Source of the DNA: Aquisalimonas lutea
GTDB taxonomy: Bacteria; Pseudomonadota; Gammaproteobacteria; Nitrococcales; Aquisalimonadaceae
Assembly: GCF_030409225.1 (NCBI RefSeq)
Contig: NZ_JAUFPK010000004.1
Location: 449,792 to 513,791 of the forward strand
Direction of reading: 5' to 3'
Length of the DNA stretch: 64,000 nt
The notes under the pieces are model-generated. The model did not search any database, had not been told where the DNA came from, and was given only the letters and a program-made list of their open reading frames with translations. This document shows positions 48,886-61,724 of this stretch, piece by piece (within the stretch, counting starts at the first letter, position 1; each line of letters starts with the position of its first letter). The position numbers were made by a program, and so were the translations under genes.

Positions 48886-50709
48886 GTGATCGAAAACCTT
48901 CGCAACATCGCCATTATCGCCCACGTGGACCACGGCAAGACCACGCTGGTCGACCGCCTGCTCCAGCAGTCCGGCACCCTGGACAGCCGCAGCCCCCAGA
49001 CCGAGCGCATGATGGACTCCAACGATCTGGAGAAAGAGCGCGGCATCACCATCCTGTCCAAGAACACCGCCATCCGCTGGCAGGACTACCGCATCAACAT
49101 CGTGGATACCCCGGGGCACGCCGACTTCGGCGGCGAGGTCGAGCGGGTCATGTCCATGGTCGACTCGGTGCTTCTGCTGGTGGACGCCGTGGACGGTCCC
49201 ATGCCGCAGACGCGCTTCGTCACCCAGAAGGCGCTGGAGCAGGGCCTCAACCCCATGGTGGTGATCAACAAGATCGACCGCCCCGGCGCCCGGCCGGACT
49301 GGGTGCTGGACCAGACCTTCGATCTCTTCGACCGCCTGGGCGCCAGCGACGAGCAGCTGGACTTCCCGGTCATCTACGCCTCGGCGCTCAACGGCTACGC
49401 CAGCGAGGACCCGGAGCGCCGGGACGGCGACATGCAGCCGCTGTTCCAGGCCATTGCCGACGGCGTCAAGCCGCCGGACGTGGACCCGGACGGGCCGCTG
49501 CAGCTGCAGGTCTCGTCGCTGGACTACAGCAGCTACGTCGGCGTCATCGGCGTCGGCCGCATCAAGCGCGGCCGGCTGCGGACCAACACCCAGGTGAGCG
49601 TCATCGACCGGCACGGCAAGAAGCGCTCGGGGCGGGTCCTGCAGGTGCTCAGCTACCTGGGCCTGGAGCGCACCGAGGTCAGCGAGGCCAATGCCGGCGA
49701 CATCATCGCCTTCACCGGCGTGGACAACCTGCACATCTCCGACACGCTGTGCGACCCGGCCCATCCGGAAGCGCTGCCCGCGCTCACCGTGGACGAGCCC
49801 ACGGTGAGCATGACCTTCGTGGTCAACGACTCGCCCTTCTGCGGCCGCGAGGGCAAGTACATCACCTCGCGGCAGATCCGCGAGCGCCTGGAGCGGGAGC
49901 TGCTGCACAACGTGGCGCTGCGGGTGGAGCCCACCGACGACCCGGAGAAGTTCCGCGTCTCCGGCCGCGGCGAGCTGCACCTGGGCGTGCTCATCGAGAA
50001 CATGCGCCGGGAGGGCTACGAGCTGGCCGTCTCGCGCCCCGAGGTCATCGTCCGCGAGGTGGACGGCGTCAAGCAGGAACCCTACGAGCAGCTCACCGTG
50101 GACGTCCCCGAGGACTGCCAGGGCGCCGTCATGGAGAAGCTCGGCGAGCGCGGCGGCGAGATGACCAACATGATGCCGGACGGCCGCGGGCGCGTACGCA
50201 TGGACTACACCATGCCGGCGCGCGGGCTGATCGGCTTCCGCACGGAGTTCCTCACCGCCACCTCCGGTGACGGTCTCATGTACCACGTCTTCGACCACTA
50301 CGGCCCGTATCGCGGCCGTTCCCTGGGCCAGCGGCCCCACGGCGTGCAGATCGCCAACGCCGCCGGCAAGGCGGTGGCCTACGCCCTGTTCACCCTGCAG
50401 AACCGGGGCAAGCTGTTCGTGGGCCACGGCGACGAGGTCTACGAGGGCATGGTCATCGGCACGCATTCCCGCGAGAACGACCTGGTGGTCAATCCCCTCA
50501 AGGCCAAGCAGCTCACCAACGTGCGCGCCGCCGGCACCGACGAGAGCCTGGACCTGACCCCGCCCGTGCGGTTCACCCTGGAACAGGCCCTGGAGTTCAT
50601 CGACGACGACGAGCTGGTGGAAGTCACCCCCAAGGCCGTCCGCGTGCGCAAGAAGCTCCTCAAGGAGCACGAGCGCAAGCGCGCCAGCCGGGCCGCGGCA
50701 ACGGCGTAG
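48886..50709 (+). CDS. typA: Ribosome-associated GTPase TypA/BipA
   Basis: EF-G-like GTPase active in ribosome assembly and stress growth. The 607 residues show G1 AHVDHGKTT (13-21), [25 protein letters not shown] and SALNGYA, then EF-G-like domains II, III and V and the TypA-specific C-terminal domain ([21 protein letters not shown]). The start is GTG at 48886 (reads as [17 protein letters not shown]), which matches the family exactly; no ATG is available. No clear purine-rich ribosome site is visible. Confidence 0.97.
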
Positions 50710-50756
50710 GCTGGAGCTTCAGATCTGCCGGAATCGGACGTGAGCCCGATTCCGGG

Positions 50757-50869
50757 GCGCTGGTGCGGGGGCTTCCGGTCACGGACACGCCGTGAATACA
50801 TCCATGTAGGCTCGACTGCGGCCGTCCTGGCCGCAGACGGTCCGTGACCGGAAGCCCCCGCACCAGCGC
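50757..50869. repeat. Type-1 capped repeat, copy 1
   Basis: A perfect 30-bp inverted repeat (50757-50786 with 50840-50869) encloses 53 bases. The part from 50778 to 50848 (71 bases, including nine bases of each arm) recurs, reversed, at 61626-61696 with a single difference; the outer arms do not. Inside are CTGCGGCC/GGCCGCAG (5-base loop) and TACA/TGTA (4-base loop), so the element can fold as a long stem with two apical hairpins. It begins 47 bases after the typA stop. Confidence 0.9.
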
Positions 50870-50916
50870 GTGCCACGGTTCGGCCTTCGGGGATGCACCA
50901 ACGTTTGACGGTGCCC

Positions 50917-51147
50917 GTCGGTGGTTGCCGGGGGTACGTTGCGGTGGGCGACTTGCGAAGCGCCGGAGCGCAGGCCGCCCGGCCCCGAAGGGGTGGCCGC
51001 AGGGATGCGGCCACCGGCTGTCAGCACAGGGATGTGCTGTCAGCCGGCCAGGCCGGAGCGGAGGATAGGCTTCCTGCTTCACCCGAAGCAGGAAACCGTA
51101 AGCGGAGCTCCGGAGCCCACCGCAACGTACCCCCGGCAACCACCGAC
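50917..51147. repeat. Type-2 capped repeat, copy A
   Basis: Arms of 33 bp (50917-50949 and 51115-51147) are perfectly complementary and enclose 165 bases. The interior, shared with copy B, folds into several hairpins: GCGC/GCGC, CCCC/GGGG, GGTGGCCGCA/TGCGGCCACC (50992-51001, 51006-51015), GGCTGTCAGCACA with its partner (51016-51045), and CCGGAGC/GCTCCGG (51053-51059, 51107-51113), which surrounds a private 10-bp hairpin (51071-51094). Confidence 0.9.
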
Positions 51148-51247
51148 CCAGCCGCAAGCCTCGTCATCAACCGCACGGATTCTCCAACCTATTCCAGGGC
51201 CCACTTCTGGTGGCCTATCGACATCACCGCAACAAGACCCACACATT

Positions 51248-51458
51248 AAGTGATCGGCGGCGGGAATCGGGTTGGGCGACTTTGCGCAGCGCCGGAGCGC
51301 AGGGCGCCCGGCCCCGAAGGGGTGGTGGCACGGATGCCGCCACCGGCTGTCAGCACAGGGATGTGCTGTCAGCCGGCCAGCCCGGAGCGAAGGGTAGGAA
51401 GCTCTGCTTCCGTAAGCGAAGCTCCGGAGCCCAACCCGATTCCCGCCGCCGATCACTT
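51248..51458. repeat. Type-2 capped repeat, copy B
   Basis: Arms of 30 bp (51248-51277 and 51429-51458), perfectly complementary and unlike those of copy A, enclose 151 bases. The interior matches copy A closely; the hairpin GGTGGTGGCA/TGCCGCCACC (51321-51330, 51335-51344) differs from A by one compensatory pair and one wobble. The apical hairpin is GGAAGC/GCTTCC (51397-51402, 51406-51411) instead of the 10-bp one of A. Confidence 0.9.
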
Positions 51459-51516
51459 CCCCCGCCCGTAAGCCATTCACGCCGTCGGCGGCGCGAATCG
51501 GATCATGCACCAGATC

Positions 51517-52272
51517 CTATCCCCACTGCCTCTGGTGATCCCGCAACGCCCGCTGCCTCTGCCGCCAGTCCGGGAGCATCCGGTCCATGTGGGCGTAGAA
51601 GCGGGGGCCGTGGTTGAACTCCAGCAGGTGGCAGAGCTCGTGCACCACCACGTAGTCGATGCACGCCAGCGGCGCCCGGATGAGCCACAGGTTCAGGTTC
51701 ACGCCGCCGCGGCTGGAGCAGCTGCCCCAGCGGCTGCGCATGGCGCGGATCTTCAGGCCGGGTGCCTGCCCCGGCGGCAGCCCGGTGGCGGGAAACCACC
51801 GGGCCAGGCGGTCGGCGAACAGGGCGCGGGCCTGGCGGCGGTACCACTCCCGCAACAGCCGCTCCACGGCGGCGCCATCCCCGGGCTCGCGGACATCCAG
51901 GCGCAGGGTCGCCCCCGTCCGGCGGCTGCGCGCCCGCCCGGCCCGCCGGACCGCCAGCGTCAGCGGCTCGCCCAGGAACGGGTGGACGGCGCCATCCGCG
52001 TAGACCGGCACCGGCGGCGGTTCCGGCAGCTCCTCCAGCGTGCCGCGCAGCCACCGCTCCCGGCTGCGGGCGAACGCCAGGGCCTCGGCCCGCCCCGTGC
52101 CGCGGGGCACGCGCACCTCCACGCGGCCGTCCGGGAACACGTACAGGCCCAGCGTACGGCGCCGGGTGGCGCGGACGCGCACCGGCCAGTACCGGTCCCC
52201 GAGCTCCAGCCAGGCGTCCGCCCCGGCCCCACCGGCGCGGCTATCCGAAATCGAAGCGATACAGCAGGTCAA
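51517..52272 (-). CDS. YgjP/SprT-like zinc metallopeptidase family protein
   Basis: A 251-residue protein of the YgjP (DUF45) family of predicted zinc hydrolases. The C-terminal half has the family block IRAMRSRWGSCSSRGGVNLNLWLI, then YVVVHELCHLLEFNHGPRFY, where HELCH is the HExxH metal site and the later His is the third ligand. The N-terminal half starts with strands typical of the family (TLGLYVFPDGRVEVRVPRG). The start at 52272 overlaps the end of tamB by 32 bases; a shorter start is possible, since the first 15 residues are not conserved. Substrate unknown. Confidence 0.85.
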   Translation of the reverse strand: MTCCIASISDSRAGGAGADAWLELGDRYWPVRVRATRRRTLGLYVFPDGRVEVRVPRGTGRAEALAFARSRERWLRGTLEELPEPPPVPVYADGAVHPFLGEPLTLAVRRAGRARSRRTGATLRLDVREPGDGAAVERLLREWYRRQARALFADRLARWFPATGLPPGQAPGLKIRAMRSRWGSCSSRGGVNLNLWLIRAPLACIDYVVVHELCHLLEFNHGPRFYAHMDRMLPDWRQRQRALRDHQRQWG

Positions 52273-61597: not shown

Positions 61598-61724
61598 GCC
61601 GCCTGTTCCGCTGGCAGGGGGTGCTGTCACGGACCGTCTGCGGCCAGGACGGCCGCAGTCGAGCCTACATGGATGTATTTACGGCGTGTCCGTGACAGCA
61701 CCCCCTGCCAGCGGAACAGGCGGC
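61598..61724. repeat. Type-1 capped repeat, copy 2 (inverted)
   Basis: Perfect 37-bp inverted repeat (61598-61634 with 61688-61724) around 53 bases. Its core 61626-61696 is the reverse complement of 50778-50848 except for one base. The outer 28 bases of each arm are unrelated to copy 1 but fully complementary to each other. It begins 25 bases after the thioesterase stop. Confidence 0.9.

Follow-up and report, generated by a model that had tools for sequence, protein, structure and literature searches.

The window, by which we mean the whole 64,000-nucleotide stretch of Aquisalimonas lutea DNA that was analysed, contains four palindromic elements belonging to two families, T1 and T2. T1 copy 1 (50757-50869), which folds on the minus strand, consists of a 71-bp core (50778-50848) with a 21-bp arm on either side. 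The two arms (50757-50777 and 50849-50869) pair perfectly with each other and form the outer part of a closing stem, P1; the outer 9 bp of the core pair too. As delimited by the other copies, the predicted fold and covariation within the family, the core comprises the inner part of P1, two hairpins, P2 and P3, and conserved joints. Hairpin P3 (50797-50808; minus-strand UACAUGGAUGUA), with ANGGA in its loop, was assigned from the predicted fold and the CsrA SELEX consensus, and hairpin P2 (50816-50836; minus-strand CUGCGGCCAGGACGGCCGCAG), with GGA in its loop, from the predicted fold and the retention of GGA across copies. T1 copy 2 (61598-61724) lies in the opposite orientation, the plus strand being the folding strand here, and has 28-bp arms (61598-61625 pairing with 61697-61724) around a core (61626-61696) that differs from that of copy 1 at 1 of 71 bases.

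Both T2 copies are described on the plus strand and their arms contain no mismatch. The first (50917-51147) has 33-bp arms (50917-50949 and 51115-51147), and sequence comparison together with the predicted fold places two hairpins between them, at 50992-51015 and 51016-51045, each carrying the loop motif CAGGGATG (51000-51007 and 51027-51034, respectively). The second (51248-51458) has 30-bp arms (51248-51277 and 51429-51458) and a core (51278-51428) with the GGA motifs CACGGATG (51329-51336) and CAGGGATG (51356-51363). By our own arithmetic, about 1e-11 perfect 30-bp inverted repeats whose arms lie no more than 200 bp apart are expected by chance per 64 kb. The initial annotation had described the four elements as two families of near-identical cores enclosed in self-complementary, locus-specific arms, and all four measure so.

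Distribution of T1 and T2

In the 4.2-Mb genome from which the window derives, 26 T1 matches are listed, which include fragments and matches to the palindrome in reverse, together with 34 T2 matches. T1 matches occur in 11 of the 20 genomes searched, this one included (10 of 19 relatives), and T2 matches in 7 of 20 (6 of 19 relatives). T1 adjoins T2 at six places in the A. lutea genome, with a distance of ∼185-255 bp from start to start. Scanning named genomes with a degenerate T1 core pattern returned at least 118 stretches, and those listed include Marinobacter, Xanthomonas, Stenotrophomonas, Halopseudomonas, Microbulbifer, Haliea and Halomonas; each of two Stenotrophomonas maltophilia genomes has at least 40 T1 matches. 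Both families are thus dispersed within Aquisalimonas, and T1 is also found across many gammaproteobacterial genera.

At S. maltophilia loci (L294, L325, L335 and others) T1 often occurs as inverted pairs in a repeated block of ∼540 bp that holds a further palindrome (GGGGTCAGATCCGTTTTCC...) between them; inverted pairs with a spacing of ∼250-285 bp are found in this species. In the relative G002 (L113, G002:C1:2381500-2381980) the place of the window's T1-T2-T2 cluster is occupied by a REP-like palindrome (GTGGGAGCGACGTCAGTCGCGA...) and TAGGGTGCATCTTGATGCACC repeats. At L265 (1690-1930) and L277 (1780-2060) the P2 or P3 loop of T1 houses a further hairpin-rich sequence of ∼80 bp, in some cases with an AGGAC loop of its own, and similar long inserts are present in the copies L192, L223 and L239. 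In S. maltophilia SJTL3 (L253; G021:C1, ∼3854358-3855578) ∼1.2 kb of other DNA, possibly an insertion sequence, splits a T1 copy within hairpin P3, the same site being intact in E301. One T1-bearing entry titled Bacillus subtilis SK7B5 (L188) aligns to the S. maltophilia locus L137 at 72-87% identity and looks mislabelled or contaminated.

Strand-specific folding and the GGA hairpins

Covariation was assessed in an alignment of 49 minus-strand T1 copies, thinned from 87 with a 60-nt core and a stem of at least 18 bp. Within it 95.2% of the cells were paired, against 62.9% after shuffling, a percentage that for P1 holds partly by construction because only copies with a stem of at least 18 bp were aligned; in P2, which was not a selection criterion, 93.6% of the cells were paired. 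Cells changed on both sides numbered 527, compared with 138 in shuffled alignments, while sliding the structure by 1-3 columns gave at most 141 such cells and at most 45.3% of cells paired. Changes on both sides were observed at 20 of the 24 P1 pairs, 7 of the 8 P2 pairs and 2 of the 4 P3 pairs; this total of 29 pairs was equalled by 12 of 500 shuffles, and the other four measures by none. Unguided RNAalifold recovered the same three helices, lacking the innermost pair of P2 and of P3 and adding two more covarying pairs to P2. T1 copy 1 is predicted to fold into the same three-way form, with a z-score of −10.9.

The mismatches that remain in the T1 arms provide a sharper test and reveal which strand folds. 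Were palindromy of the DNA all that counted, a given strand should show A.C and G.T mismatches at about the same frequency. On the plus strand, however, A.C greatly exceeds G.T, both in the family set (43 versus 8) and in the named genomes (220 versus 21), as well as in 234 copies with at least 15 of 22 arm pairs matched (304 versus 30) and in 112 copies thinned to differing arms (108 versus 19); these sets overlap, and the direction of the bias is the same in all. It is therefore the minus strand, in the reference orientation of T1, that folds and tolerates G.U pairs. Covariation and the wobble bias together show that T1 is a structured single strand, the folding strand being the one that carries the GGA loops. 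For T2 the predicted fold has a z-score of −13.8 and the hairpin stems, judged by eye, change symmetrically between copies. Its arms show no wobble bias (G.T 14 and A.C 16 in 1,850 pairs) and thus lend no support to an RNA role of the T2 stem.

The loops of the internal hairpins are the fixed part of both families. P2 of T1 has GGA in its loop in 47 of 48 family-set copies and, P2 lying outside the search pattern, in 132 of 136 named-genome copies. P3, typically UACANGGAYGUA, has GGA in all 48 of the copies found by blast; in the named-genome set its GGA was partly fixed by the search pattern. T2 carries two CANGGAYG hairpins in 52 of 53 copies, N and Y being free. The loop sequences of both families are close to the CsrA SELEX consensus RUACARGGAUGU, in which ACA and GGA are invariant (PMC7652899), and csrA (PF02599) is present in 19 of the 20 genomes, that of A. 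lutea included, with none found in G010. Since two GGA-loop hairpins lie close to the consensus and csrA is present, T1 and T2 are best read as putative two-site CsrA-type modules inside a long stem. Against docking of CsrA stands the P2 stem, which is stable at 7-8 bp; a stable stem may hinder the protein, as the same source indicates (PMC7652899). The two families had initially been called unrelated, a description that does not extend to their build: as each carries two GGA-loop hairpins, they are not wholly unrelated. Both the strand asymmetry of T1 (A.C/G.T) and the shared CsrA-type hairpins go beyond the initial annotation.

Gene context was derived with a home-made ORF caller, leaving out copies remote from any gene or situated at the edge of a contig (43 of 139 T1 copies in named genomes, 3 of 49 in the T1 family set and 3 of 51 for T2). 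Between tandem genes the GGA strand is in the sense orientation at 35 of 60 T1 sites in named genomes, 21 of 28 in the family set and 17 of 26 T2 sites (73 of 114 pooled), only a mild majority. Convergent and divergent gaps hold 25 and 11 T1 copies in named genomes, 9 and 9 in the family set, and 15 and 7 T2 copies, against a background of 70 and 69 in the named loci, indicating a mild preference for gene ends. Raw ORF overlap, which would place 73 of 139 named-genome T1 copies 'inside' an ORF, was discarded as spurious ORFs run through the palindromes. Intrinsic termination was considered as a function of T1 and rejected: among 136 copies, 1 has TTTT in the 8 nt beyond the stem on one side, and none has it on the other. 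At the S. maltophilia locus L140 a separate terminator lies beside T1.

The closing stem and how its arms change

Self-complementary arms are a property of nearly all copies measured. In the T1 family set 48 of 55 copies have a stem of at least 18 bp, several of the other 7 lying at contig ends, and 9 further blast matches were left out as their boundary anchors did not fit. Among named-genome copies with a recognised right boundary the figure is 136 of 148 (13 more pattern matches, lacking that boundary, are outside this set), and 53 of the 57 T2 copies that passed the filters have arms of at least 20 bp. The arms are mostly locus-specific, as the initial annotation had noted for the four elements; we found neither a majority of copies without self-complementary flanks nor one arm sequence everywhere. 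Perfect pairing, by contrast, which the annotation had also claimed, holds for the arms of both T2 copies and of T1 copy 1 in the window and is not a general rule: the 234 T1 copies have 488 mismatches in 5,148 pairs, and T2 arms have 48 mismatches or gaps in 1,850 pairs, 24 of the 53 T2 copies being mismatch-free.

T1 stem lengths cluster: 52 of 139 named-genome copies, a good number of them related ones from Xanthomonas, have a 24-bp stem, and 34 of 55 family-set copies have one of 23-26 bp. Border motifs recur outside the variable T1 arms, for example gatccggg to the left of them and gtgcc to the right. T2 arms span 30-44 bp in the 53 copies, often with GTC/GAC outside, GGGC/GCCC inside and variable sequence between. 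In Xanthomonas and in S. maltophilia one arm type is common to several loci. At the site of the 61598 T1 copy, inspection by eye revealed no palindrome in the congeneric relatives G002, G003 and G004, although the exact insertion point is not visible because their intergenic DNA has diverged. A search for unoccupied sites with alignable flanks at the window locus, at the 61598 site and in S. maltophilia yielded no clean case, either because divergence between genes was too great or because the difference proved to be another insertion. One copy, L041 (G001:C23), has a left arm unpaired beyond 10 bp and a right side equal to that of L042 (G003:C55), and might reflect a chimera created at the repeat during assembly.

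Change in the arms was followed at orthologous sites, with orthology taken from flank alignments and the pairs picked by hand, and hence a selection; core differences were counted position by position, which overestimates them where core lengths differ, and as edit distances for nine pairs. The clearest cases of symmetric change are two S. maltophilia pairs. Between L291 and L288, 5 symmetric and 1 double change affect the 22 arm pairs, the cores are identical (0 of 60) and the flanks are 91.0 and 95.6% identical; PC315 carries the L288 arms. Between L303 and L331 the arms differ by 7 symmetric, 1 single and 1 double change, with 2 of 60 core differences and flanks 92.4% identical. When as many as 3 mismatches were allowed in a search of G021-G024, the L331 arms matched only their own locus, and the L288 arms matched their own locus, its G023 counterpart and two 3-mismatch places without T1. 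Neither set of arms thus has a paralogous donor T1 in the four genomes searched, although an unsampled strain could be the donor. In Marinobacter (L136/L157), 5 contiguous arm pairs have changed while the other 17 of 22 have not; as the flanks (81% identical) and core (11 of 60) differ as much, this is a block and not an excess rate. At other sites the arms have stayed as they were (the second copy of L243/L244; L265/L137) or the changes are one-sided (L079/L052; L300/L324). In a comparison of nearest-neighbour arms, symmetric changes adjoin one another in 156 cases versus 128 by chance (the highest of 2,000 shuffles being 165), a weak test as most of these pairs are not orthologous.

At L079/L052 the T1 core is inverted between nearly the same arms and flanks, the one clear inversion. 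Opposite T2 orientations in different species, at L110/L021 and at L094 compared with L096 and L109, are not clear inversions; at L110/L021 the arms differ throughout and independent insertion is therefore possible. Core subtypes have switched at orthologous sites with partial retention of the arms, as at L060/L071, where the cores are 10 edits apart over 61-62 positions and the arms differ by 3 symmetric changes and 1 single change, and a further switch separates L050 from L075 (core edit distance 12). The whole element has been replaced between 92-93% identical flanks at the first copy of L140/L154. L125 and L233, 96.6% identical over 7 kb, differ by two adjacent symmetric arm changes, and recombination is the plain reading here because L143, only 80% identical, shares the L125 element and flank. 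In S. maltophilia the arm type shared among loci shows that exchange between T1 copies also happens, and recombination clearly acts on these elements too.

These observations bear on what the arms are and what selection sees. One proposal in the initial annotation was that the cores insert into the loop of existing palindromes, and the hairpin-rich sequences nested in the P2 or P3 loop at L265 and L277 demonstrate that loop insertion does occur in these genomes. A cassette entering pre-existing palindromes is nevertheless very improbable, as T1 stem lengths are clustered, the borders recur, arm types are shared between loci and the relatives are palindrome-free at the 61598 site. For the same reasons the arms of T1 and T2 look like the element's own closing stem, P1, and not a target palindrome; in P1 the pairing is conserved and the sequence nearly free. 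Selection might alternatively act on folded single-stranded DNA, as a substrate for transposition or replication, and not on RNA. A strand-specific fold tolerant of G.T would look the same in DNA, and the dispersal of the copies, like the inverted pairs in S. maltophilia, suits such a role. We consider this unlikely in view of the GGA, which the loops retain while their stems and remaining letters vary, the pattern expected of a CsrA site.

The second proposal of the initial annotation, that the arms are built or kept perfect by strand switching, draws partial support from the symmetric multi-base changes, the two altered arms without a second copy in four genomes and the clear core inversion, and is weakened in that recombination also fits and also acts. 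Symmetric change of several bases and inversion of the spacer are the footprint of template switching as set out in two studies (PMC8604942; PMC8794818), the latter of which calls the evidence for template switching in stem maintenance circumstantial (PMC8794818). Recombination is a close rival. Were it to act alone, arms and cores would be exchanged between dispersed copies or strains and selection for pairing would do the rest, an account made credible by the subtype switches with partly retained arms, the replacement at L140/L154, the L125 element shared with L143 and the common arm type at many S. maltophilia loci. It accommodates less readily the two altered arms without a donor T1 in the four genomes and the contiguous symmetric block of L136/L157, bordered by unchanged arm on both sides; as a complete explanation we judge it possible, if on balance doubtful. 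Slow compensatory point mutation under pairing selection alone, passing through G.U intermediates, is quite improbable. The strong G.U-type bias of the remaining T1 mismatches speaks for it, and the 24 mismatch-free T2 arms could be young. Set against this are the few wobble pairs of T2 and, above all, 6 of 22 arm pairs differing at L291/L288 and 9 of 22 at L303/L331 with flanks 91-96% and 92% identical and 0 and 2 of 60 core differences; judged from this load of change relative to flank identity, independent compensatory substitution at these two sites appears unlikely.

Relation to known systems and significance

Known CsrA/RsmA-titrating RNAs (CsrB, CsrC, RsmX/Y/Z and RsmW) are encoded by a single dedicated sRNA gene or a handful of them. 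T1 and T2 resemble them in having several hairpins with GGA loops, and differ in being scattered as tens of copies, each holding two sites inside a closing stem of ∼24 bp (T1) or 30-44 bp (T2). Searches of Rfam with window positions 50400-51700 and 10 of the at least 118 named loci returned no T1 or T2 match at the gathering cut-off, the sole hit at cut-off being sX9 in L126, outside T1. RsmW appeared as a sub-threshold match to the two T2 hairpins (21.7 bits against a cut-off of 52, E 0.4). The miRNA matches in the window, far below cut-off, reflect the long palindrome only, and TwoAYGGAY was dropped as an identity, being absent from the 20 Rfam matches up to E 10 for 50400-51700.

Palindromic repeats offer a second comparison. 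MITEs are likewise small and dispersed with inverted termini. Their termini are, however, the conserved part, whereas most of the terminal stem of T1 and T2 is variable, only the inner pairs and weak outer motifs being shared. REP, REPIN and BIME sequences (GTAG- or CGTC-tagged and RAYT-associated) are short palindromes present in tens of copies, singly and as inverted pairs, and their stems also carry complementary changes. REP families are set apart by stem or loop sequence, mostly with a terminal tag such as GTAG (PMC3733652). T1 lacks the family-conserved stem sequence of REPs, and by eye its outer arm ends bear no constant tag of the GTAG or CGTC kind; unlike in REP, it is the loops and joints of T1 and T2 that are fixed and the closing stem that varies. 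The multi-base symmetric changes and the one clear spacer inversion seen in T1 are of the kind described for template-switch (quasipalindrome) hairpins (PMC8794818; PMC8604942), although recombination with unsampled alleles may also account for them. The published cases are rRNA, microRNA or yeast coding repeats, and T1 differs from them as a multi-copy bacterial element with long stems. No earlier description of T1 or T2 was found in the literature searched, in which subscription journals were thinly covered.

The explanation that we favour, with modest confidence, is that T1 and T2 are dispersed two-hairpin elements of CsrA/RsmA type, closed by a stem of free sequence whose arms are sometimes rewritten together, most likely through template switching. 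The two families are built alike, with two GGA-loop hairpins as putative CsrA/RsmA sites inside P1, and the locus-specific arms would be P1 itself, constrained in its pairing and nearly free in its letters. The GGA-loop strand of T1 would act as RNA and be bound by CsrA, such that a transcribed element, often near a gene end, may tie its transcript to CsrA or add to the pool of CsrA-titrating sites. Both arms would at times be rewritten in multi-base steps, template switching across the hairpin at replication or repair being the most probable route, and the same process could also invert the core.

T1 is abundant and occurs in many gammaproteobacterial genera, with no name arising from the Rfam scans run on the window and 10 named loci. 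If CsrA binds T1, many CsrA sites lie in repeats and not in dedicated sRNAs. A hairpin that exists in many natural copies and whose stem sequence is free also offers a direct test of whether template switching creates and maintains perfect RNA stems. More speculatively, and with considerable reserve, a multi-copy RNA element spread across the gammaproteobacteria may represent distributed titration of CsrA, its stems rewritten in place by strand switching at replication, so that the fold would be kept while recombination-prone homology between stems is lost.
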